Below are positions 251 through 11,111 of a stretch of 64,000 nucleotides of DNA, piece by piece. Source of the stretch: an uncultured Clostridium sp. (lineage in GTDB: Bacteria; Bacillota; Clostridia; Lachnospirales; Lachnospiraceae). The first letter of the stretch is position 1. Each line of letters begins with the position of its first letter. Position numbers and translations under genes: made by a program. The notes under the pieces were generated by a model. It was not told the origin of the DNA. It did no database searches and saw only the letters and a program-made list of their open reading frames with translations. The stretch lies in contig CANRZB010000006.1 of NCBI GenBank assembly GCA_947644195.1, forward strand, positions 1 through 64,000, written 5' to 3'.

Positions 251-277
251 ATAACAGGATACAAAAAGGCATACATA
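251..277 (+). promoter_or_regulatory. Upstream sigma-E-like promoter of the split deacetylase
   Basis: ATA (251-253), 16 bases, then CATACATA (270-277). This fits the known mother-cell sigma-E pattern ATA-16/18-CATACAnT apart from the last base. It lies 58 bases before the chosen ATG. A second promoter of the same form overlaps its -10 box. Confidence 0.4.
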
Positions 278-301
278 GTTCGAAACCCAGGCACATACAT
301 A
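275..301 (+). promoter_or_regulatory. Downstream sigma-E-like promoter of the split deacetylase
   Basis: ATA (275-277), 16 bases, then CATACATA (294-301). The ATA is the tail of the upstream promoter's -10 box. A start near 308 leaves a short leader to the Shine-Dalgarno AAGGGA at 322-327. Sigma-E control would place expression in the mother cell during sporulation, which suits a spore peptidoglycan deacetylase. Confidence 0.45.
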
Positions 302-334
302 TAAAATAACGAATTGTTTGTAAGGGAAATTATT

Positions 335-616
335 ATGTGTATGAAACCTACGGATCTACAGGTAGATAAAGAAGTGGCAAAAATCAGTTCCTTTATAAAA
401 ACCGGACTCTTTACCCTGGCCGTCATATTTATTGCCGGTATGGCAATTATCTTCAGCCAGAAAAAAATGACACAAACCACCGGCGCATTATCCGGTAATT
501 CCATCCATCATAAAGAACTCCCGATTTACAGCGTTGATACCAAAGAACCTAAAGTTGCCCTGTCATTTGATGCTGCCTGGGCAGCAAGCTCCTTGTTGAC
601 CACCAGTTTATCCTAA
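335..616 (+). CDS. PdaB-like polysaccharide deacetylase, 5' piece (interrupted by element 1)
   Basis: This is the first of three pieces of a sporulation-type polysaccharide (peptidoglycan) deacetylase. The ATG at 335 is preceded by AAGGGA eight bases upstream; an in-frame TTG at 314 has no such site. Residues 1-82 comprise a short cytoplasmic tail, one membrane segment (about residues 21-41), the family linker LPIYSVDT and the catalytic motif VALSFDAAW. At codon 82 (578-580) the homology stops at the element 1 repeat. Reading continues into foreign sequence for 11 residues to the stop at 614-616. As it stands the product is a membrane anchor without a catalytic domain. Joined to 6443-6705 and 10714-11052 it gives 277 residues, a normal family length. 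The family assignment is strong; the PdaB subfamily is inferred from FDAAWG and the N-terminal anchor. Confidence 0.85.
   Translation: MCMKPTDLQVDKEVAKISSFIKTGLFTLAVIFIAGMAIIFSQKKMTQTTGALSGNSIHHKELPIYSVDTKEPKVALSFDAAWAASSLLTTSLS
572..581 (+). repeat. Left attachment site of element 1
   Basis: GCTGCCTGGG, matching GCTCCCTGGG at 6434-6443 with one mismatch; the exact shared core is CCTGGG (576-581 and 6438-6443). It sits in the FDAAW codons of the deacetylase. Crossover anywhere in the core joins tgg (578-580) to ggg (6443-6445) and restores the reading FDAAWGNED. Confidence 0.8.
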
Positions 617-738
617 AACTTCAATATTGAATGTTTGTTTCTTCGGGAATCAGAACAGTAAAAGATCTAAATTTCTTATAATACTGCACCTGCCATATCC
701 GGCGCTACATCATTAATGGAAGGAAAGGGGATGGATCC

Positions 739-933
739 ATGACGGAGCAACGCCCAAAAAAAACAAAAATGGAAACTATATCACAATATTCCACTCCCTC
801 CTGGAATATTATTCGGGAATATAGCAATCTCTGCTCCCCGGAAGAAATGGTCCGCCTATTAATCCGCAAAAGGATAGAACATTCTGAACATGCCATCACT
901 GACACATCAAAGAAACAACAGGAAAGAGAATAA
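739..933 (+). CDS. Small ORF upstream of recombinase 1; candidate directionality factor
   Basis: A 64-residue, charged, soluble protein in the same direction as the recombinase that starts 61 bases after it. The ATG follows a purine-rich stretch with GGAAGGAAAGGGG at 719-731. There is no family match that I recognise. The C-terminal third is rich in Lys, Glu, His and Gln. The equivalent place in element 2 is also filled by a 66-residue ORF, and in skin-like systems small proteins steer serine recombinases toward excision. That role is inferred from position only. Confidence 0.5.
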   Translation: MTEQRPKKTKMETISQYSTPSWNIIREYSNLCSPEEMVRLLIRKRIEHSEHAITDTSKKQQERE

Positions 934-935
934 TT

Positions 936-973
936 CAAATCCCACCTGATATAATCCAAATCCCACCTGATAT
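936..973 (+). repeat. Two direct repeats before recombinase 1
   Basis: CAAATCCCACCTGATAT occurs at 936-952 and again at 957-973, a 21-base period of about two helical turns. The pair lies between the small ORF and the recombinase start. It could bind a regulator or the recombinase, or be a slippage duplication. Confidence 0.6.
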
Positions 974-994
974 TCAGAAAGGAAAGAATCCATT

Positions 995-2623
995 ATGAGA
1001 TCAAGCAGCAAAAAAGAACTCCTTCCCCCAAAATGCCACACTCCCTGGTGGGCATTATACATCCGTCTAAGTCGAGAAGATGGAGATCAAGCAGAAAGCT
1101 TCAGTGTTTCCCATCAAAAGATGAAACTGATCGCGTATGTGAAAGACATGCCGGAAATTACCAACTACGAACTCTACATAGATGATGGATGGACGGGAAC
1201 CAATTTTGAACGCCCTGACTTCCAACGGCTGGTTCAAGATATTTTGGAACAGAATATTGTGGGCATCATTGTCAAAGATCTATCCCGCCTTGGCAGAGAC
1301 AATCCCAAGGCCAGTTATTTTGTCCATGAATTCTTTCCTGCGCACAAAGTTCGGTTTATCGCCATAGATGACCATATCGACAAAAATTATTATGATCTGG
1401 ATACCGCTTCGGACATGATGATTGACGTCAAAAATATGTTTAACGGCTTTTATCCGCGGGATATCAGCAGCAAAGTACGTTCTACCTTTCGGACAAAGCA
1501 ACGGGCCGGTCAATTTATTGGCGCCTTTGCCTGTTATGGCTACCGCAAGGCACCTGACGATCATAACTCCCTGCTCATTGACGAACCTGCCGCCACAGTT
1601 GTCCGACAGATTTTCTCCATGTATCTAGCAGGGAACGGGCAGAATACGATCGCCAGGAAACTAAACGAAATGGGCATCCCCTGTCCATCGGAATATAAGA
1701 AGCAGCAAGGGCTTAACTACCAAAACAGTAAACGACTCAATCAGACATCCTATTGGACCTATTCCAGCATCCGCAACATTCTCCGCAACGAAAGTTACAC
1801 AGGTGTCATGGTACAAAACAAAACATTTCGACAAATATGTAAAAAGAAAGCAGTTGCCCTCCCCAGACAGGAATGGATCATCGTACCGGATACCCAGGAA
1901 GCAATTATAGACCCAGATACCTTTCACAAAGTTCAAAATCTTCTGGCACAAAATACCCGACAGACAAACCTGACACAAAACATGCACCCATTGGCTGGTA
2001 TAATCAAATGCGGCGATTGTGGCAGAGCCATGTGCAAGATTCGAAAACGTGGGAACACCATGTTTCGCTGCGGCAGCTATCAGCGTTATGGCAATAGCCG
2101 TTGCAGCTCCCACCTAATTGCAGAATCCGTATTGCTAAATTGTATTCAAGAGGATTGTAACTCGCTCCTGGCAACCATACCCCATCTTCGAACATTGATT
2201 AACGAAGAACTCAAACAATCCTCCCATTACTTGAAACAACAGACTGAAGAGACGGAGACATTTCGTCATGAAATTGTCCGTTTAGAACGGAAAAAAGATC
2301 TCGCCTACGAAGACTATTCTGACGGTTTGATCTCTAAAACGGATTTCCTCAAATACCGAAAACGCTATGAAACTCAGATTCATTCTCTCGAAAAACAGCT
2401 CTCCCTGCTTACGACGTCTTCTAATTACGCACCAACCCTCAACCCGGAATGGATCGGACGCCTATTGGAAACCGGACGCCTGGAACCACTGCATCGAAGC
2501 CTGATCGTAGCATTGGTAGACCAGATTACAATCTACCAGGATCATACGGTCAGAATCCGTTATCATTTTTCGAATAACCGGTCCCTCGCCGATTCTGACG
2601 AAAAAGTAGATAAAATCGGTTAA
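995..2623 (+). CDS. Large serine recombinase of element 1
   Basis: A site-specific recombinase of 542 residues. The N-terminal resolvase domain has the nucleophile Ser26 in ALYIRLSRED and the conserved VKDLSRLGRD segment. A recombinase domain follows, then a zinc ribbon at about 339-373 (CGDC, then two further Cys), a coiled-coil stretch around 410-465 and a short C-terminal tail. This is the normal order for large serine integrases. It starts at ATG 995 after AAAGGAAAG. It lies about 0.4 kb inside the left attachment site and in the same direction as the deacetylase, so it is the obvious enzyme for integration or excision at the CCTGGG core. All expected domains are present and there is no frameshift. 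Confidence 0.93.
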   Translation: MRSSSKKELLPPKCHTPWWALYIRLSREDGDQAESFSVSHQKMKLIAYVKDMPEITNYELYIDDGWTGTNFERPDFQRLVQDILEQNIVGIIVKDLSRLGRDNPKASYFVHEFFPAHKVRFIAIDDHIDKNYYDLDTASDMMIDVKNMFNGFYPRDISSKVRSTFRTKQRAGQFIGAFACYGYRKAPDDHNSLLIDEPAATVVRQIFSMYLAGNGQNTIARKLNEMGIPCPSEYKKQQGLNYQNSKRLNQTSYWTYSSIRNILRNESYTGVMVQNKTFRQICKKKAVALPRQEWIIVPDTQEAIIDPDTFHKVQNLLAQNTRQTNLTQNMHPLAGIIKCGDCGRAMCKIRKRGNTMFRCGSYQRYGNSRCSSHLIAESVLLNCIQEDCNSLLATIPHLRTLINEELKQSSHYLKQQTEETETFRHEIVRLERKKDLAYEDYSDGLISKTDFLKYRKRYETQIHSLEKQLSLLTTSSNYAPTLNPEWIGRLLETGRLEPLHRSLIVALVDQITIYQDHTVRIRYHFSNNRSLADSDEKVDKIG

Positions 2624-2698
2624 TCCCCTTGCTAGACCACAGCAAATAACCTGTTCAAACTATGTTTCCCTTCCCTATATTGTTTCCATGGTTTCCGC

Positions 2699-4099
2699 CT
2701 AATCCTGGGAAGTACTATATTCCTGGATGAATGGATAATAATTCTGATAATTTTCCGTCAGCTTCCTCTCCACCTTGTGCTTCAAGTAGTCTCCCATAGA
2801 TCTGCTTACCCCCGTGGATCTCATTTTTAAGTATTTCTCCCATTTCTCCCGCTCCCGGCCAATCCTGCGCAACCGATCCAACTGCTCCTGTGGCGATATT
2901 GCAGAAAACGCCTGCACTGGCGGAGTAAACTCACGGTTCTGAATAACTTGGTCGAATGGGCTGCACTCCGGTCCATTGCCCTTTGCATCATAAATAGTCG
3001 TCAAATCGTTTTCCCGCAGAAAATCCAGATAATGCATAAACTTATCCTCATGGTTTTTCTGAATTGCTCCAAAATCAGCCTTCTCATACAAATCAAAAAT
3101 CCGGGTATCGGTTTTCAAATCTTTCATCAGCACATGCGGTATGTGATGATAGTCTACCAACTCTTTGATCCGTTCATCCGATACTACAATGAAACACGGG
3201 GTGCCGGCCAGAATGGAAGCGATATTGCCATGAATTCGGCTTCCATAGGAAAAATCTTTATTTCTGAGGTATTCCAACCAGGATGGAAAATTTGTAAAAC
3301 TAATTCCCTTACCAGATTGATAGAGAGGATTCGTAAAATCAACAGGAAAATGGGCAGGAATTTTTTTGACAAATCCTTCCGGATAATCCGACCCCATATA
3401 CATCTGCCGAATTTCCTCAATGACCTGTGCAACATAATGAAACTTCGGAAGCTCCTGACTGCTTCGATACATAAAATCATGAAATTTCTGTGGCAGCTGA
3501 ATCTTAGAATTCATACTGACATCTGACTCCGGCGTCAGATCCTTTACTTTCATTGCAGGAAGCTCTTTTCCCCACATATACATGGAGGGGCAGCCGATCA
3601 CTGTAAAATCCTTCTCTGCATGGAATCCCAAATTGGTTAAATATTCTGCCGTAATCTCCCCGCGAAGCCCGACGATGGAAGACCGGTCCAAAATCGCTTT
3701 CATAAAACGAATTACCGCTTCATCCAATTCCGACTGTTCGGATGCTTTTCTTTTCTTTGCCTGAATACCAACTCCAACGACGATACAGGGAATCCTTAAT
3801 TGGCTAACCAGTTCCGTTATAGAATTCAATTCCCTCAAAAATGAATAGCGGAATGCATTGGCAAACGGCAATACCAGACAGTCATAGGTCTCATTGATCC
3901 ACTTGATATGCTCACTGGAATATTTTCTTACTGTATTTACCGTGTCAAAAACCGTGTCCTCACAGAAAAGCGCTCTACAGACACTGGCAGGAAACAACAT
4001 GTTTCCAATATTATTGCCGATCTGGTTTCTCATAATTACCTCTGTCTGATCATGGTTTTTGAGTGGCGACATCCCCGCGCGCAATAATATTTTTTTCAT
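2699..4099 (-). CDS. Polysaccharide pyruvyl transferase family protein
   Basis: A 466-residue protein resembling the polysaccharide pyruvyl transferase family, which adds ketal pyruvate to cell-surface sugars. The N-terminal half has a Rossmann-like pattern (VVGVGIQA near 110, IVGLRGEITAEYL near 140, IGCPSMYM near 165). The C-terminal half has GSRIHGNIASILAGTPC and a following acidic segment, the family's signature for the second nucleotide-binding half. The C-terminal 90 residues are charged and less conserved. ATG 4099 follows GGAAGGAG. It is downstream of the hydrolase gene in a probable two-gene operon, oriented against the recombinase. As element cargo it may modify the envelope or spore surface; that is a guess. 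Confidence 0.75.
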   Translation of the reverse strand: MKKILLRAGMSPLKNHDQTEVIMRNQIGNNIGNMLFPASVCRALFCEDTVFDTVNTVRKYSSEHIKWINETYDCLVLPFANAFRYSFLRELNSITELVSQLRIPCIVVGVGIQAKKRKASEQSELDEAVIRFMKAILDRSSIVGLRGEITAEYLTNLGFHAEKDFTVIGCPSMYMWGKELPAMKVKDLTPESDVSMNSKIQLPQKFHDFMYRSSQELPKFHYVAQVIEEIRQMYMGSDYPEGFVKKIPAHFPVDFTNPLYQSGKGISFTNFPSWLEYLRNKDFSYGSRIHGNIASILAGTPCFIVVSDERIKELVDYHHIPHVLMKDLKTDTRIFDLYEKADFGAIQKNHEDKFMHYLDFLRENDLTTIYDAKGNGPECSPFDQVIQNREFTPPVQAFSAISPQEQLDRLRRIGREREKWEKYLKMRSTGVSRSMGDYLKHKVERKLTENYQNYYPFIQEYSTSQD

Positions 4100-4182
4100 G
4101 CTAATCTCCTTCCTGTGTCGGGATCATTTGTTTCCATCCAGTTTCTCTTATTACCACTTAGAATACCTGAGTCGGATCCTCT

Positions 4183-5076
4183 TTACTCTAAAAATTCCAA
4201 TATATCTGTAAATACCTGTTCATTATTCTGTTCATTCAGGATTTCATGACGCATACCGGGATAACTGATTTCGGTAATATGTGTAAACCCTGCTCTCCGC
4301 AATATCATCAGACTTTCCACACTTCCCTGGTCTCCGCCAGTGCAGGGATCATCCGCTCCACGAAGCGCTAAAATCGGAAGATCAGACTGGACATTCCGAT
4401 ATTTTTTTATTTTCGTCATTCTCTGTACCAACCGAAACAAATCCTGAAATCCTGCAATGCGAAATCCATGGCCACAATAAGGATCTTCTTGAAACGACCG
4501 AATGTTATCTTCATTCGCACTAATCCAGTCCAATTCTGTTTTGTGATCCGGAATTTTTCGGTTAAAGGTTCCCACTGCCAGTTTCTGTACCCATTTGGAG
4601 TAGTAATCCCCTCCTTTGCACCGTTTGATGATTTCTGCCAGTAGGATTCCCAAGCCAGCAGCGGAATTGACGCAGGGATACCCGGATAAGATTACCTTTT
4701 GATAAGTCATAGACTGACTTTGCAGCAGATTCCTGGCAATAATAGTCCCCATGGAATGGGCAAATAGAATGACCTGCTCTGTTTGAAATCGGTGTTTGAT
4801 ATAAGAAGTAATTCTCATCTGATCCCCTAGCAGATGAGACCATCCCTGTTTTTCCCCAAAATATCCCAATACTGGCGCCGTTTTCCCATGCCCTCGCATA
4901 TCGGATGAAATTACCGTATATCCAGCCGCATTAAGGCGTTTTGCCAACGGTTCGTAACGCTCCTGGTGTTCCTCCATTCCATGGATAATCTGTACCATAC
5001 CTTTTGGATGCTCTATTGCAAAAATGTGCAGGCACAACCGATAACCATCCCGCGCCCTTATGATCACTGTCTCCAT
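4183..5076 (-). CDS. Alpha/beta hydrolase, lysophospholipase-like
   Basis: A 297-residue serine hydrolase of the monoacylglycerol lipase/PldB group. Visible motifs are IHGMEEH (oxyanion region), SSDMRGHGKT, the nucleophile elbow FAHSMGT (Ser about 107), the acidic residue in LRGADDPCTGG and the histidine in PGMRHEILNE. There is no signal peptide or membrane segment, so a cytoplasmic enzyme is expected. It is followed after 83 bases by the pyruvyl transferase-like gene on the same strand. The substrate is unknown; esters of glycerol or lysolipids are usual for the family. Confidence 0.85.
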   Translation of the reverse strand: METVIIRARDGYRLCLHIFAIEHPKGMVQIIHGMEEHQERYEPLAKRLNAAGYTVISSDMRGHGKTAPVLGYFGEKQGWSHLLGDQMRITSYIKHRFQTEQVILFAHSMGTIIARNLLQSQSMTYQKVILSGYPCVNSAAGLGILLAEIIKRCKGGDYYSKWVQKLAVGTFNRKIPDHKTELDWISANEDNIRSFQEDPYCGHGFRIAGFQDLFRLVQRMTKIKKYRNVQSDLPILALRGADDPCTGGDQGSVESLMILRRAGFTHITEISYPGMRHEILNEQNNEQVFTDILEFLE

Positions 5077-5302
5077 TTAGCTGCTCCTTTTCTCTCTACT
5101 GTTATACTTTCCATATCTTAGCATACCTTCCCATTTTTTACCATATCCTGATAAAATGTTTTTCTTTTCCATCTGCTCTTCTCTACAGATACAAGTTAAA
5201 AAAGCCAGAAAATTGAAAAAAACGATTGGGGAAATAGTCGCTTTTCCTCTCTATATGATGTATAATTTAGTTAAAAATAATACAACCAAAGAGGATTCGG
5301 AT

Positions 5303-6391
5303 ATGAAAAAAATACTGGTGGTGGATGATGCGGAGATCAACCGTGAACTATTACGCACAATATTGGAACAGGAATACGCCCTGGAAACTGCTGAAAATGG
5401 AAAACAGGCAATGAGGAAGCTTAAGGAAGCAGAACAAGACTGGGCTGCTGTTCTGTTAGACTTGCAAATGCCCGAAATGGATGGATTTGCAGTAATCGCA
5501 TCCATGGAACAGCAAGGCTATCTGGACAGAATTCCCGTATTAATTATCAGCAGTGAACAGGCTGCGGAGATTGAAAGCCAATGTTTTGAATTGGGAGTTT
5601 CTGACTTTATCCATAAACCCTTCGACAGCTCCATTGTGCGAAACCGTATCCGAAACACCATCGACCTGTTTGAACGCAAAAATACGCTCCGTAGAAAAGT
5701 GGAAGAACAGGAAGAAGCCTTAAAACAAAGAGATCGAATTATTCAGATTCAGGCAGGAAAACTAAAAGAAGTGGAAGAATTTAATCGACTAATGATGGAA
5801 TACCGTTTTGCCATGATGGAGGTAGAGACCAGACTGAAAGTATTAAATGAAGAATTTTCCCATAAATACAATAGAAATCCATTTGAGTCGATCAAGAGCA
5901 GATTAAAATCACCGGAAAGCATCTATGAAAAGCTGGAACGAAAAGGATATCCGGTCTCCATTGAAAATATCCGGGAACATCTGGCAGATGTAGCAGGTCT
6001 GCGCGTCATCTGCTCCTTCCCGGATGATATTTACCGTCTGGCAAATCTATTTACCAGACAGGGCGATATCCTGCTGCTCCGAAAAAAAGACTATATCCAA
6101 AACCCCAAGTCTACGGGTTACCGCAGTCTTCACCTAATTCTAAGCGTGCCGATTTTTCTATCGAGTGAAATCAAATATGTGAAAACAGAGATCCAGTTTC
6201 GCACCATTGCCATGGATTTCTGGGCAAGCCTGGAGCACAAGATGAAATATAAGAAAGACGTCCACAATGCAGAGGAAATTGTTGCACAGCTAAAAAACTG
6301 TGCCGATACCATTGAACTACTGGATCATCAAATGCAGGATATACGGGATAAAATAGATGTCAAAAAGCAATCTCTGACGGATGCGGGTTAA
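5303..6391 (+). CDS. Response regulator fused to a RelA/SpoT-type (p)ppGpp synthetase
   Basis: A 362-residue two-domain protein. Residues 1-125 form a CheY-like receiver with the acidic pair at 8-9, phospho-acceptor Asp53 in LLDLQMPEMDGF and the conserved Lys in IHKPF. A coiled coil spans about 127-180. The rest is a small alarmone synthetase domain: SRLKSPESIYEKL, HLADVAGLRVICSF, KDYIQNPKSTGYRSLH and the glutamate strand EIQFRTIAMDFWASLEH. These synthetase motifs look intact and there is no HD hydrolase domain. The ATG at 5303 follows GAGGA; an upstream in-frame start at 5156 has none. No histidine kinase is nearby. The fusion implies phosphorylation-controlled (p)ppGpp production. It is the last gene of element 1, ending 46 bases before the right core. 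Confidence 0.9.
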   Translation: MKKILVVDDAEINRELLRTILEQEYALETAENGKQAMRKLKEAEQDWAAVLLDLQMPEMDGFAVIASMEQQGYLDRIPVLIISSEQAAEIESQCFELGVSDFIHKPFDSSIVRNRIRNTIDLFERKNTLRRKVEEQEEALKQRDRIIQIQAGKLKEVEEFNRLMMEYRFAMMEVETRLKVLNEEFSHKYNRNPFESIKSRLKSPESIYEKLERKGYPVSIENIREHLADVAGLRVICSFPDDIYRLANLFTRQGDILLLRKKDYIQNPKSTGYRSLHLILSVPIFLSSEIKYVKTEIQFRTIAMDFWASLEHKMKYKKDVHNAEEIVAQLKNCADTIELLDHQMQDIRDKIDVKKQSLTDAG

Positions 6392-6433
6392 ACACCAGAC
6401 GGAATTCTCATTCCTTCTTCCAATAACCGCCTC

Positions 6434-6443
6434 GCTCCCTGGG
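6434..6443 (+). repeat. Right attachment site of element 1
   Basis: GCTCCCTGGG, the partner of 572-581. Immediately after it the deacetylase homology resumes in frame with GGG AAT GAA GAT. The exact core is CCTGGG at 6438-6443. Confidence 0.8.
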
Positions 6444-6724
6444 GGAATGAAGATACCCCCCGCCTACTGGAAACCTTGGAAAAAAATGACGTCAAAGCTA
6501 CCTTTTTCATGACAGGAGGATGGATCAACAGCTATCCTGACGACGTCAAAGCAATCGCTGCAGCAGGCCATGAACTGGGCAACCACAGCGAAAATCACAA
6601 AGAAATGTCCAAAATATCCGCCGAGGAATGTAAAACAGAAATCATGACCCCCCACGAAACGGTCAAAGACCTGACTGGCATTGAAATGAAGGTATTCCGT
6701 CCACCAAACACGGAAAGATTATGA
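6443..6724 (+). CDS. PdaB-like polysaccharide deacetylase, middle piece
   Basis: The second piece of the split deacetylase. It has no start codon or ribosome site at its true beginning, because it is an internal exon-like part. From 6443 it reads GNEDTPRLLETLEKNDVKA, then TFFMTGGW and GHELGNHSENH, whose two histidines are the metal ligands of the family's second motif. It ends with VFRPP at 6692-6706. Beyond the GTATTCCGTCCACC repeat the frame runs into element 2 and stops at 6722-6724. The genuine part is about 87 codons. It is meaningful only if both flanking elements are removed. Confidence 0.85.
   Translation, partial: GNEDTPRLLETLEKNDVKATFFMTGGWINSYPDDVKAIAAAGHELGNHSENHKEMSKISAEECKTEIMTPHETVKDLTGIEMKVFRPPNTERL
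6692..6705 (+). repeat. Left attachment site of element 2
   Basis: GTATTCCGTCCACC, identical over 14 bases to 10714-10727. It encodes VFRP and the first two bases of the next Pro codon, the conserved RPPYG motif of the deacetylase. Crossover joins it to TTACGGTGACTAT and restores VFRPPYGDY. Confidence 0.85.
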
Positions 6725-6758
6725 TTTCTTACCGCCGCCAATTATTTCATTCCTAATC

Positions 6759-6811
6759 AAACAGAAAAACCATTCCGGTATCAATTCCCTACCGAAATGG
6801 TTTTTCTGTTT
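6759..6811 (-). terminator. Terminator of the chemoreceptor-like gene
   Basis: A 22-base stem (6759-6780 with 6790-6811, one mismatch) around a nine-base loop. It is bounded by runs of A and T, so it could stop transcription in both directions. Its right arm overlaps the stop codon of the minus-strand gene. It may also limit readthrough from the deacetylase into element 2. Confidence 0.8.
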
Positions 6812-7727
6812 ATGCGTCGTATTCTTTGATCATTGGTGGGATCTGGGACAACATATTATCCACATCCTCAAACATTACACTTTTCGTAGTTCCCAACTTG
6901 CTGGCACGATTAATATGATCCATTACTTCCTGATATTGCTCCTTTGTCCTGTCAAAAAAAGAATTAACAGTCTGCAAAGCCATCCGGGAGTCATTGATCA
7001 CATCGGAAATCTCCGACTGTACCGTCGTTGCCCCCTCAGCTGCTTCCGTAATCTGGTCAAACATTTCATAGGTATCATTCACTTTATCAATACTTTCTCC
7101 CAATGCCTGTTGGGAGGTGTCGATATCCTTATGTAATTTATCCGTATCCTGCTCTACCTCGGCAATACTGGCTTCCACGGCTGCCACAAGATTTTTGACC
7201 TCATCTGCCAGATTCTTTACTTCTCCGGCAACCACGGCAAACCCTCTGCCCTGCTCTCCCGCCTTGGCTGCTTCAATGGAAGCGTTCAGTGCAAGTATAT
7301 TCGTTTGCTCTGCAATGGAAGTAATCTTATTGGTACATTTTTTTATCTCCTGCACCGCCGTCTGAAAATCATCAAACGTATGCTTCATCTCGCCAAAATG
7401 GGATTCCACCTGCAAGGAACTGTTCTTTAATCCCTCTACCTCGCCCTGTGCCTGGGTCACAGATTGGGCGATATTACTTTTTACCGCCTCAAACTGACTG
7501 GAAACCTGATTGATGCTTGAAAAGGTCTCTTCAAAGTTTTGTAGAGTTTGCTGAAAATCTTCAGATTCATGTAACACTTTCTTAAAAGAATGATTCACTT
7601 CACCAAGCTGGTTTAAGGAATCTACCTCCTTTTGTACCAGCTCCCTTTGATAGTCTTTTAAGTTATCCATCACATGCAATATGGGATATGTATCCATCGT
7701 ATGCTTCTCTTTGCTCTTGAACCGCAT
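6810..7727 (-). CDS. Soluble methyl-accepting chemotaxis-type signalling protein
   Basis: A 305-residue protein that is almost entirely a coiled-coil signalling domain. The hairpin tip is [20 protein letters not shown] followed by [20 protein letters not shown] (about 140-180), the CheA/CheW contact region of chemoreceptors. There is no membrane segment and no periplasmic or PAS/Cache sensor domain. ATG 7727 follows AAGGAGGGAG. The FIST gene lies directly upstream, with its stop 15 bases before this start, so the pair probably forms a sensor and transducer. No cheA, cheW or cheY is in the window, so the partner kinase would be elsewhere. Confidence 0.88.
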
Positions 7728-7741
7728 TTCCTTCTCCCTCC

Positions 7742-8836
7742 TTATTCAAATACCACACAGGTCATGGACTGGTTGACAAACTGATTGTTGTAATGCTCCC
7801 CATACCCTACCAATCCGGCATGGTTACCAAGCTTTTTCATTTCTTCCAGATAATCCTGCATGTAATGATTTTCCGTAAACAGTAAATAGCGGAACAGACA
7901 GTTTACAGAGAATACCGCAGAAATCTTTGGAAAATCCTGATGGATCTGCTGTATGGTATTCTTCACAATATTTTTGTAATCCCCTAATTCCAACAGGATC
8001 AAAACATCAGAATCGTTTACCTGACGGAAACACGTCAAAGCATTGCCGCAAACCTCCTTGATGGAGATAATACAGGTATCGTTGCCATTCAGTTTCCCAA
8101 AAGGATTCTTAAAGGTCTGAGTTAATATCTCTTCTTCCGTTACATGAAGAATATGCTGATATACCTGTTTCGCCGGTCTTCCGTTTAATTCTCCCAATTT
8201 ATATTCAGATTTGTTGGTTTTTGAAGCAATGAACCGATAATTGTCCTTTTGACGGTAAATATTTTCCTTATACGCTTTTACCTTTCCATGATTATTTTTT
8301 ACCACGGCATACGCAACCGCATCTTCATAGACTTTTCCGTTCGCAGAGATTTTTCCTGCATCGCCGGTTCCCCCAACCAGGGAAATATTCTGGCGCTTTA
8401 ATACGCTATGAATCGTCGTGAGCACACAGGCATCATTTCCGGAACAAAAGTCGATACAGATGGTATCGTTTTGCGTCCCGTTTACCTTTTTTACATCCTG
8501 TTCCAGGCGTTGAATATATTTGACAGGCATCGTAGATGCCTCCTCCAGCACATTTGCCGCTGCGGTAACGCCATCGTAAAATGCAATGATTCCTACGCCT
8601 TTTTCCACGACCCTGTTATCGTAGCTCATCCCGATACATCCAATGCTAGGGACATTGGGATAAAGCGCCTCCAATTTTTTCACATGCGCCTCAAACTGGT
8701 CGCTGTTGGATAACAGCATAATTAGCTGAGGATCCTTTAATCCGCGGACTGCATCCTGCAGGCTTCCGCTCTGGCTCATACCAAAAAATTGTTTCACAGT
8801 AACGTCCTCCCCTATCTCATATTTTGTAGTACTCAA
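7742..8836 (-). CDS. FIST domain sensor protein
   Basis: A 364-residue protein with FIST-N ([17 protein letters not shown], about residue 70; [12 protein letters not shown] and [11 protein letters not shown], about 125-165) followed by FIST-C ([13 protein letters not shown] and [11 protein letters not shown] near the end). FIST domains are proposed small-molecule sensors, often fused to or next to chemotaxis and two-component proteins. There is no signal peptide, so it should be cytoplasmic. It is the first gene of a two-gene operon with the soluble chemoreceptor-like protein. The ligand cannot be read from sequence. Confidence 0.85.
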
Positions 8837-8942
8837 TCTTCCATCATGATTATAAGATATTTCGAAGAATTAGAAAAGATATAAATGCAAATTTTTGGAA
8901 GGAATCTTTCCATGGTTCTACAAGGCTTCTAAGATGGGAATA

Positions 8943-8987
8943 GGACAAATCCCCTCTGGAATATATTTGTCAAAAAAGGATTTGTCC
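8943..8987 (+). promoter_or_regulatory. Inverted repeat overlapping the ribosome site of the element 2 small ORF
   Basis: GGACAAATCC (8943-8952) and its perfect complement GGATTTGTCC (8978-8987) flank 25 bases. The right arm covers the GGA of the Shine-Dalgarno and ends one base before the ATG at 8989. It could be an operator, or an RNA stem that hides the ribosome site. A weak sigma-E-like match (ATA at 8940-8942, 17 bases, AATATATT at 8960-8967) lies across it. Confidence 0.5.
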
Positions 8988-8988
8988 C

Positions 8989-9189
8989 ATGAAAAAAACA
9001 AAGATATGTACCGTTACCTTTCACATCCAATCAGGGGAAGATAATATTCCTTTTGATACACTTAGCAGAAAAGACCAGCAAATAATTCAAGAAGCCTTTT
9101 CACTGGGCTGTATGGATCTCTATATGCAGCAACTGGGATATCGACGAGCCGGTGCAAAGCAGTCAAAAGGTAAAGAGGTTTCCATATGA
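8989..9189 (+). CDS. Small ORF coupled to recombinase 2; candidate directionality factor
   Basis: A 66-residue basic protein. Its start is preceded by AAGGA and its stop overlaps the recombinase ATG by four bases, so the two are translationally coupled. The motif FDTLSRKDQQIIQEAF in the middle looks helical; no family is recognised. Its position matches that of the 64-residue ORF in element 1, although the two do not resemble each other by eye. A role as excision factor or recombinase regulator is inferred from the coupling. Confidence 0.6.
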   Translation: MKKTKICTVTFHIQSGEDNIPFDTLSRKDQQIIQEAFSLGCMDLYMQQLGYRRAGAKQSKGKEVSI

Positions 9190-10706
9190 GTACAACACAG
9201 AATTCATTAAAAACAGTTTGCGCCTATATCCGAGTTTCCACCCACATGCAAGAGGAGTTGTCCCCGGACGCACAGCTCCGCCTTTTGCGAGAATATGCCG
9301 GCAAGAACCAGATGATCATTGGTCGGGTGTATCAGGATTTAGGATGTTCCGGTACCAACGCTGAAAAACGTCCAGGCTTTCAGGAAATGATTGCTGACTG
9401 TAGAGCCAAGGAACATCCCTATTCTGCAGTTCTGGTCTGGAAATTTTCCAGATTTGCCAGAAACCAGGAGGAAAGTATTGTCTATAAATCTCTCTTGAAA
9501 AAAGAACGGATTGATGTTGTGAGTATTTCGGAACCCCTTCCCGACGGTTTTATCGGCGCCCTGGTGGAGCGTATTTTTGAATGGATGGATGAATATTATT
9601 CTATCCGGCTCTCGGGCGAGGTCAAAAGGGGGATGACACAGAAGGCAATACAGGGCGGGTATCAGGGAAAAATGCCGTTGGGGTACACAAAAGAAATGCA
9701 AAAAACTCCTGTCGTAAAACCTGAGGAAGCCCTCCTTGTCCAAAAAATATTCTTTGATTATGTTAAGAAACATGGCAATTCTTCGGACGTTGCCATCTGC
9801 CTGAACCGAGAGGGCATCCATGCCAAAGAGGGCGGCGTCTTTGATGCGAAAAAGATTAATTACATTATTACAAATCCGTTTTATATCGGCAAAATCCGAT
9901 GGAACTACTGGAACCGTTCCACCAGGCAGTTTAACTCGGGCGATGATGTCATTATTGCGGATGGGATACATGAACCAATTATTTCGGAAGACCTTTGGAA
10001 TCAAGCGCAGGCAATTTACTATGAAAATAAGGATAAATATAAGAAACGGGGAAACCGCAGGGGGACTTCCGGCAAAAAACACTGGCTGTCCGGACTTTTG
10101 CGCTGCGGGAAATGTGGCGGTCCCATGACATATGGTGTCCAATCGGGATCCAAACATCCATTTTCTTTTTTTCAATGTTCCAGACGCTCCCAGGGACGAT
10201 GCGATACCAGTTCCTACATCAGCGAAAAAAATGCGGTAGCCTCCGTAACGGCTGCCTTAAAAAACTTTCTGAAGAACACCAGCGTAGAATACGAAAGAAT
10301 TCCAGCACAGGCGCAAGACGCAACATCACTGGAACTTTTACAAGCCGAATTTACAAAAATGGCAGCCCAGGGAAAACGAATCCAGGAAGCTTATGCCAGT
10401 GGGATTGATACATTAGAAGAATACCGGGAACATAAAAAAACATTGGCCGACAGAAAAGCATCTATAGAACACAAAATACAGCTCTTATCAACCAATAAAC
10501 CTGCCGAAACCACACTGCAGAAGCAAAGAATCTGTCAGTCCATGGAACATATTCTTGAATTGTTGGAACATGATTCCGACCATTACACCGAACTTGGGAT
10601 CGCCCTTTCCGAATATATTGCAAAAATAGAGTACAACAAACCCCAAAATCACATGGATATCTATCTATACGAATGTCGATCGAATAACAGCAGTGAAAAA
10701 CTATAG
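9186..10706 (+). CDS. Large serine recombinase of element 2
   Basis: A 506-residue site-specific recombinase. It has the resolvase domain with Ser18 in AYIRVSTHM, LVWKFSRFARNQEES with conserved arginines, the recombinase domain (GYQGKMPLGYTKE onward), a zinc ribbon at about 305-345 (CGKC and two later Cys) and a C-terminal coiled coil. Domain order and length are complete. It starts at ATG 9186, overlapping the small ORF, and stops seven bases before the right attachment core. It differs clearly from recombinase 1 in sequence, consistent with the two elements using different core sites. Confidence 0.93.
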   Translation: MSTTQNSLKTVCAYIRVSTHMQEELSPDAQLRLLREYAGKNQMIIGRVYQDLGCSGTNAEKRPGFQEMIADCRAKEHPYSAVLVWKFSRFARNQEESIVYKSLLKKERIDVVSISEPLPDGFIGALVERIFEWMDEYYSIRLSGEVKRGMTQKAIQGGYQGKMPLGYTKEMQKTPVVKPEEALLVQKIFFDYVKKHGNSSDVAICLNREGIHAKEGGVFDAKKINYIITNPFYIGKIRWNYWNRSTRQFNSGDDVIIADGIHEPIISEDLWNQAQAIYYENKDKYKKRGNRRGTSGKKHWLSGLLRCGKCGGPMTYGVQSGSKHPFSFFQCSRRSQGRCDTSSYISEKNAVASVTAALKNFLKNTSVEYERIPAQAQDATSLELLQAEFTKMAAQGKRIQEAYASGIDTLEEYREHKKTLADRKASIEHKIQLLSTNKPAETTLQKQRICQSMEHILELLEHDSDHYTELGIALSEYIAKIEYNKPQNHMDIYLYECRSNNSSEKL

Positions 10707-10713
10707 TCGTTCC

Positions 10714-10727
10714 GTATTCCGTCCACC
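10714..10727 (+). repeat. Right attachment site of element 2
   Basis: GTATTCCGTCCACC, identical to 6692-6705. The deacetylase reading frame resumes through it as VFRPPYGDY. Confidence 0.85.
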
Positions 10728-11052
10728 TTACGGTGACTATAACGACACCCTGATTAACTCCTTGAAGGAATGTGGTTACTACGGAATCCAATGGGATGTT
10801 GACAGCCTGGACTGGCGCGATTATGGCGTAGATACCATTCTATCCAATGTGCTGAACCATAAAGCGCTCGGCAACGGCTCCATTATCCTCTGCCACAACG
10901 GTGGAAAACATACGGCAGATGCCCTGGATCAACTGATCGCCGGATTAAAAGAAAAAGGCTACAGCTTTGCCACGATCTCTGAACTGATCTATCCGGATAA
11001 TTATGAAATTGATGTGACCGGGAAACAGCACCTCATTGGAAAACCCCAATAA
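10714..11052 (+). CDS. PdaB-like polysaccharide deacetylase, 3' piece
   Basis: The last piece of the split deacetylase. It reads FRPPYGDYNDT, then WDVDSLDW (the Asp/Trp motif) and IILCHNGGKHT (the Leu-x-His motif), and ends ISELIYPDNYEIDV plus a short tail. The frame opens at an ATG at 10693 inside the recombinase tail, but there is no ribosome site, so it is not expected to be made by itself. It is followed by an intrinsic terminator, as expected for the end of a transcription unit. Joined to the two earlier pieces it completes a 277-residue enzyme. Confidence 0.87.
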   Translation, partial: VFRPPYGDYNDTLINSLKECGYYGIQWDVDSLDWRDYGVDTILSNVLNHKALGNGSIILCHNGGKHTADALDQLIAGLKEKGYSFATISELIYPDNYEIDVTGKQHLIGKPQ

Positions 11053-11061
11053 TACATAACA

Positions 11062-11111
11062 TCCGGCATCCTGAGGCGGTTTATCCGTCCCAAGATGCCG
11101 GACTATTTTTT
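11062..11111 (+). terminator. Terminator of the split deacetylase gene
   Basis: TCCGGCATC (11062-11070) pairs with GATGCCGGA (11094-11102), followed by CTATTTTTT. It sits ten bases after the deacetylase stop codon. Confidence 0.75.

Follow-up and report, generated by a model that had tools for sequence, protein, structure and literature searches.

We analysed a 64,000-nucleotide stretch of DNA (hereafter the window; positions 1-64000 of contig 6, CANRZB010000006.1, of the uncultured Clostridium sp. assembly GCA_947644195.1, family Lachnospiraceae) from a genome, G000, assembled to 3.44 Mb in 82 contigs and 97.5% complete. In it, a PdaB-like polysaccharide deacetylase gene of 834 bp lies as three collinear pieces on one contig, separated by gaps of 5,862 and 4,022 bp (Table 1). 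Joining at 580|6443 and 6705|10728 yields a single frame from the ATG at 335, with 277 codons and a stop, each piece being open and in frame. The joined protein carries FDAAWG, NHSENH, RPPYG, DVDSLDW and LCH in this order, motifs that we assume to have their usual roles in a deacetylase. Each gap holds its own recombinase and is bounded by its own direct repeat, with cores of 6 and 14 bp, such that the host gene is split and is restored in frame at a short repeat, as with elements of the skin and gin kind. A preliminary description of this sequence had claimed the three pieces, the motif order, the separate recombinases and repeats, and signalling cargo in both elements (a receiver-RelA/SpoT fusion in element 1, a chemotaxis signalling protein and a FIST protein in element 2), and all of these claims hold.

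Both Rec1 and Rec2 have open frames and contain Resolvase, Recombinase and Zn-ribbon domains that score over the cut-offs. No further PF07508 recombinase was found in the assembly, and both of these reside inside this one gene. Inverted-repeat arms of the phage-type attachment site (attP) around the core are a hallmark of large serine recombinases. The predicted attP 2 arms of the window are complementary at 16 of 22 positions, a value reached by none of 500 shuffles. Similar arms were observed among the 14 cases compared, where all five site-2 cases have 15-20 of 22 complementary positions (shuffle P = 0.014 or less).

Recurrent interruption at four sites in related genomes

Both uninterrupted and singly interrupted orthologues, which the preliminary description had proposed to look for, are present among 28 genomes of the genus. 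The gene is whole in 13 (G001, G003, G004, G005, G007, G012, G016, G017, G018, G021, G023, G026, G027), is found as two to four pieces in 10 (G000, G006, G008, G009, G010, G013, G014, G015, G019, G024), and is represented by one piece only in five (G002, G011, G020, G022, G025; some at contig ends, and with a stop in G022). Four pieces, and hence three breaks, are found in G015, and three pieces each in G000 and G006. The gene matches 269 of 348 genomes of the family, of which the best 150 rows were available for inspection. Pieces on both sides of a break occur in other genera, at least in those followed up (G067, G077, G080, G133, G158, G221, G275, G301, G312, G314, G323, G383, G395), and likewise in other families of the order (G048, G052, G059). 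In G133, which belongs to another genus, the two breaks of the window recur on a single 415-kb contig (plus-strand pieces at C49:291805, 302905 and 342858), with inserts of 11 kb and 39.7 kb. The latter, at site 2, is a prophage with terminase, head protease, major head and tape measure genes. Across relatives, the inserts range from 1.5 to 92 kb, the largest being at site 1 of G395, a single 5.43-Mb contig. Since both PF07508 proteins of the assembly are in this gene, 10 of the 28 genus genomes carry it split and G133 has the same breaks, the split gene is confirmed to be more than chance: one gene is interrupted by two independent recombinase-bearing elements.

The breaks fall at four codon sites, FDAAW|G (site 1), GG|W (GGW), RPP|YG (site 2) and WDV|D (site 3), with cores of TGGG(G), GGNT, CCNCC and GTNGAY, respectively. 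At 20 of 26 junctions, an in-register core of at least 4 bp restores the motif without a stop, although two of these joins (G000 site 2 and G006 site 3) relied on a coordinate shift of three bases. In a tree of 31 recombinases located beside gene pieces (31 of 33 rows were kept; G108_s1 and G019_x were dropped), the proteins cluster according to site, in four groups: site 1 (14 rows, support 97/96), site 2 (7 rows, 100/100), site 3 (8 rows, 100/99) and GGW (2 rows, 100/100).

Joined element ends were observed for a relative of element 2. On the IMG/VR contig IMGVR_UViG_3300006217_003247 (L151), there is a gene for a recombinase that shares 98% identity with the one in the G015 site-2 element. 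A full palindromic attP directly follows this gene, and the contig has, by reading, open reading frames (ORFs) resembling phage tail proteins and an amidase. Bases 1-1531 of the contig correspond to the right end of the G015 element (97.4% over 1,531 bp) and bases 1515-4037 to the left end (95.5% over 2,527 bp). From these adjoining matches, the two ends of the G015 element meet at the predicted core, as a free or not yet integrated form; the element concerned belongs to a relative and not to the window. Gene pieces were absent from 8 viral loci collected earlier, and a degenerate pattern of the rebuilt site-2 codons gave 0 matches in viral contigs. Three of 184 viral loci (L397, L400 and L411, from IMG/VR) hold gene pieces as well as recombinases of the site-3 type, all retrieved with the site-3 query.

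Some arrangements in relatives are more complex. Three genomes (G301, in tandem at L212; G314; G048, at L147) have an interrupted copy together with a second, uninterrupted one. On G014:C6 (L135), piece 1 and its recombinase lie on the strand opposite to the rest of the gene, ~5 kb away, reflecting either an inversion or a misassembly.

Table 1. Coordinates of gene pieces, core repeats and element features in the window
Feature	Position	Strand	Basis
Possible sigma-E-like promoter, ACATAG ... CATACATAT	273..302	+	by eye; G010-like, short of strict pattern
Piece 1 of PdaB-like gene, N-terminal hydrophobic stretch to FDAAW	335..580	+	77% identity to matching G010 piece
Site 1 core repeat, left copy, CCTGGG (6 bp)	576..581	+	repeat comparison
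Element 1 between core repeats (predicted excised unit 5,862 bp)	582..6437		core repeats, domain search
ORF of 64 amino acids, candidate directionality factor or regulator	739..933	+	weak homologues beside rec1-like genes
Rec1, large serine recombinase, site-1 clade	995..2623	+	domains, tree
Polysaccharide pyruvyl transferase, element 1 cargo	2699..4099	-	PF04230
Alpha/beta hydrolase, element 1 cargo	4183..5076	-	PF12146
Response-regulator receiver fused to RelA/SpoT synthetase, element 1 cargo	5303..6391	+	PF00072, PF04607
Site 1 core repeat, right copy, CCTGGG	6438..6443	+	repeat comparison
Piece 2 of gene, GNED to RPP, including NHSENH	6443..6705	+	
Site 2 core repeat, left copy, GTATTCCGTCCACC (14 bp)	6692..6705	+	repeat comparison
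Element 2 between core repeats (predicted excised unit 4,022 bp)	6706..10713		core repeats, domain search
Predicted attP 2 right arm (element left end)	6706..6730		complementarity to other arm
Methyl-accepting chemotaxis signalling protein (MCP), element 2 cargo	6810..7727	-	PF00015
FIST protein, NosP-like but under NosP model cut-off, element 2 cargo	7742..8836	-	
ORF of 66 amino acids overlapping rec2 start	8989..9189	+	homologues in other loci
Rec2, large serine recombinase, site-2 clade; stop codon within attP arm	9186..10706	+	domains, tree
Predicted attP 2 left arm (element right end), overlapping 14-bp repeat	10698..10722		complementarity
Site 2 core repeat, right copy, GTATTCCGTCCACC	10714..10727	+	repeat comparison
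Piece 3 of gene, YGDY to stop	10728..11052	+	

Selection on the gene and its sporulation context

The proportion of nonsynonymous differences (pN) is far below that of synonymous differences (pS) in all pairs of interrupted copies compared: G000/G010 (pN 0.087, pS 0.81), G008/G024 (0.051, 0.65), G014/G013 (0.071, 0.66), G019/G015 (0.074, 0.61) and G006/G008 (0.169, 0.87). Omega in the three unsaturated interrupted pairs is 0.034, 0.046 and 0.062. As a control, the eight closest intact pairs have pN of 0.084-0.180 and pS of 0.70-0.86, with an omega of 0.100 in the one unsaturated pair. Stops are absent from all nine interrupted copies examined. The interrupted gene is under strong purifying selection, with no sign of decay.

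The best NCBIfam match of the joined protein is PdaB (TIGR02764), at 215.6 bits against a cut-off of 237.4, and all five intact orthologues scanned also score below this cut-off (214.9-226.2 bits). The label PdaB-like given in the preliminary description thus stands as a best match, while the equivalog cut-off is not reached; judged by these model scores, we regard the gene as PdaB-like yet under the curated line. Among named matches, the two best come from an uncultured bacterium (66%) and from a bacterium of Lachnospiraceae (67%), with many more Lachnospiraceae among the 80 listed. No close intact copy was found in the genome. Four further deacetylase-family proteins are 25-35% identical and of other types: one is PdaA-like (234.1 bits, cut-off 298), one has PdaB as its best match at just 165.6 bits, and two have no match at E 1e-30.

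Because both SpoIVA (629.0 bits, cut-off 459.9) and a whole SigK (302.9 bits, cut-off 298.65) score over their cut-offs in the genome of the window, its sporulation competence is supported. With what we take to be the sigma-E consensus, 64 of 128 loci have a sigma-E-like pattern ahead of the gene, compared with a mean of 15.2 and a maximum of 26 in 100 shuffles and with 13 on the reverse strand; the shuffles are first-order resamples, and some of the 128 loci repeat one genome (L010 and L037 have identical matches). The upstream regions align poorly, as gene starts differ, and the alignment served for G000/G010 and a general look only. According to excerpts of the literature, a table of sporulation mutants places pdaB (spoVIE) of B. 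subtilis in the sigma-E regulon (PMC4703394), and three polysaccharide deacetylases of C. difficile are under sigma-E (PMC3789822).

Proposed excision during sporulation and alternative explanations

We propose that the PdaB-like spore-wall gene is a landing site for two distinct site-specific integrating elements. Each serine recombinase would recognise a short core within the codons of an invariant motif and integrate there, and excision would precisely restore these codons. When the cell sporulates, and probably in the mother cell, which is doomed, each recombinase together with a helper protein would excise its element; the two excisions would jointly rebuild the gene, and the spore chromosome would keep both elements. 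Were the gene required in the mother cell alone, discarding the elements in that cell would be harmless to inheritance, the same reasoning as has been put forward for skin and related elements. We infer the timing, the cell type, the helper proteins and the inactivity of the gene before both excisions, and consider the explanation as a whole to be quite probable. Piece 1 holds FDAAW, piece 2 NHSENH and RPP, and piece 3 the rest; both excisions would therefore be needed for the full enzyme. Sporulation-timed excision and the resulting AND-gate are likely, the gate requiring both that the two elements are excised and that nothing short of the complete enzyme is active. The gene might also be a landing strip shared across Lachnospiraceae, with four docking sites in catalytic codons, each with its own recombinase lineage, and one to three locks that must all be opened to finish the spore, signalling cargo perhaps tuning the opening; to this broader proposal we give slightly less than an even chance.

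The helper role could be filled by the small ORFs ahead of the recombinases, which have homologues in other such loci and are candidate directionality factors. The 64-residue ORF (739..933) has no Pfam or PHROG match, and its homologues lie in L120, L118 and L176 (E = 2e-6, 7e-4 and 0.008); those of the 66-residue ORF are in the site-2 loci of G006 (L128) and G019 (L125) and in L134 of G002. Regarding expression, no terminator-like site was found between piece 1 and Rec1 on their common strand, with Rec1 downstream, and the gene's own promoter might read into Rec1. We treat such read-through as an idea only, since the recombinase faces the other way in G009, G080, G158 and G067.

Several results weigh against this explanation. 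For the elements of the window itself, excised junctions were not seen; its own assembly gave only the pieces. The site-1 attP arms of the window are complementary at 10 of 22 positions (P = 0.064), and just three of nine site-1 cases reach P < 0.01. Six of the 26 junctions lack an in-register 4-bp core among the candidates listed (G010 and G077 at site 1, G024 at site 2, G015 and G059 at site 3, and G015 at GGW), with the G010 site-1 ends sharing TGGGG by eye; for the other 20, in-register joining favours the motif by construction and had no random control, so that its weight rests on recurrence. The recombinase tree is midpoint-rooted and carries long-branch warnings for G395_s1, G133_s1b and G077_s3. 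At E 1e-100 in the 348 family genomes, a gene piece lies in the ~1.5-kb flanks of 9 of 22 rec1-like and 2 of 26 rec2-like genes, and relatives of Rec2 above all may mostly sit at other sites. Interruption is not required, because this gene and sigK are both whole in 8 of the 28 genus members. The upstream scan of the 128 loci gave no strict sigma-E-like match for the window's own gene. Single copies in relatives are also discordant: the G212 copy holds stops; the G264 orthologue (L214, near 8280) has a frameshift at the site-2 core, possibly the scar of a bad excision or a sequencing error; and the 1.5-kb site-1 insert of G275 (L220:10132-11602) has no recombinase and only a glutamate-cysteine ligase gene (PF04262). 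A rec1-like gene is located elsewhere in the G275 genome, and this insert is either a passenger excised in trans or a stranded one.

An alternative is that these are ordinary mobile elements residing in a gene dispensable for growth, which leave at low rates at any time and without developmental control, in carriers that sporulate poorly or use other deacetylases. The wide range of insert sizes, one insert being a prophage, agrees with such elements, as does their turnover: the window's Rec1 shares 64% identity with the G009 protein and 57% with the G010 protein, whereas the gene itself is nearer to G010, indicating that elements were replaced over time. Sigma-E-type promoters driving the recombinases were considered and rejected, as the pattern is not clearly enriched upstream of them (9 of 32, against 5.8 expected and a maximum of 13 in 200 shuffles); this result counts for the alternative and against the favoured explanation. 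Elements free of developmental control are harder to reconcile with the strong purifying selection and lack of stops, with the mother-cell-type promoter pattern in half of the gene loci and with the same style of interruption in sigK of the genus, and we consider this alternative improbable.

A gene that no longer functions in this lineage, its pieces being recent remnants, as the preliminary description had contemplated, gains some support from the four other deacetylase-family proteins, the frameshift at site 2 in one relative and the stops in another. These four proteins are of other types, the three pieces are open and in frame, and pN is far under pS in interrupted pairs; a pseudogene is rejected on pN/pS and the nine copies without stops, and this reading is very unlikely. 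An assembly artefact is hardly credible at all: this is a draft of 82 contigs, with the pieces spread over separate contigs in many relatives, but those of the window are all on one, and the three pieces on the 415-kb contig of G133 and the gene split by 92 kb in the single contig of G395 rule it out.

Sporulation-timed excision, the explanation that we favour, has precedents, described here from excerpts of the papers cited. Skin, in sigK of B. subtilis and C. difficile, is a serine-recombinase element that splits a mother-cell sporulation gene, is excised in sporulation and was inserted independently in different hosts (PMC5025042). As with skin, a serine-recombinase element splits a sporulation-type gene in the window; skin is one element, whereas the gene here is host to two (a relative has as many as three), and each of four sites has its own recombinase clade. 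Gin, in gerE of B. cereus ATCC10987, is a single 28.6-kb non-phage intervening element with serine recombinases (PMC5595907); the elements of the window resemble it in being non-phage and in their serine recombinases, and differ in that gin is alone and its host gene is another one. Prophages or prophage-like elements, described as one per gene, are yin in yabG, SPbeta in spsM and vfbin in spoVFB (PMC10747680), while the window elements have no convincing phage head or packaging genes and the G133 site-2 insert does. The preliminary description held that developmental excisions interrupt a gene only once. This is not so in general, since in heterocyst-forming cyanobacteria 10 of 87 interrupted genes have several elements, with four in nifD of Rivularia (PMC4874684), in another phylum and cell type. 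For endospore formers, the literature searched, with most subscription papers outside it, gave no recognised report on pdaB in this role or on a sporulation gene interrupted twice. What appears to be new is an endospore gene with multiple interruptions at four recurrent sites, apparently across Lachnospiraceae.

Programmed excision in endospore formers is known as single elements in a few Bacillus and Clostridium genes; here one gene is interrupted repeatedly, up to three times in a genome, across many apparent Lachnospiraceae genera. These natural replicates bear on why genes of terminal cells are chosen, how att sites settle in catalytic codons and whether stacking of elements conditions sporulation. 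They also supply four serine-recombinase clades with mapped sites, and illustrate that annotation based on fragments can miss an important sporulation gene.

Element cargo and interruption of sigK

When the nine element proteins were compared with PHROGs, no convincing head or packaging gene was found. Both recombinases match the integrase family phrog_95, and the hydrolase, the receiver-RelA protein and the MCP match families of 'other' or 'unknown function'. Further matches of the MCP, to tail and head families, are weak (E 1e-6 and weaker) and probably of a coiled-coil kind. The two-domain match of the receiver-RelA/SpoT fusion (5303-6391) is confined to the genome of the window among the 28 (E 1e-40). 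Cargo varies among the elements of relatives in L207, L210, L211 and L206, which include MatE transporters, an AbiEii-type toxin protein, and NAD-binding, protease-like and acyltransferase proteins. Just upstream of the gene in G010 (L118, 8410-9633) is a pyruvyl transferase with 54% identity to the one carried by element 1, and cargo may therefore be captured neighbour genes.

In 10 of the 28 genus genomes (G001, G004, G008, G015, G018, G019, G024, G025, G026, G027), sigK is apparently split at ~codon 110, with both pieces found in eight and one piece in G019 and G025. The pS of sigK is 0.14 for the N-terminal piece versus 0.76 for the C-terminal piece, and that of rec2 in G008/G024 is 0.43 versus 0.61-0.68 for the deacetylase gene; with these contrasts, conversion or transfer is in play for element age. 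A serine recombinase was present in all six sigK loci fetched (L228-L233).

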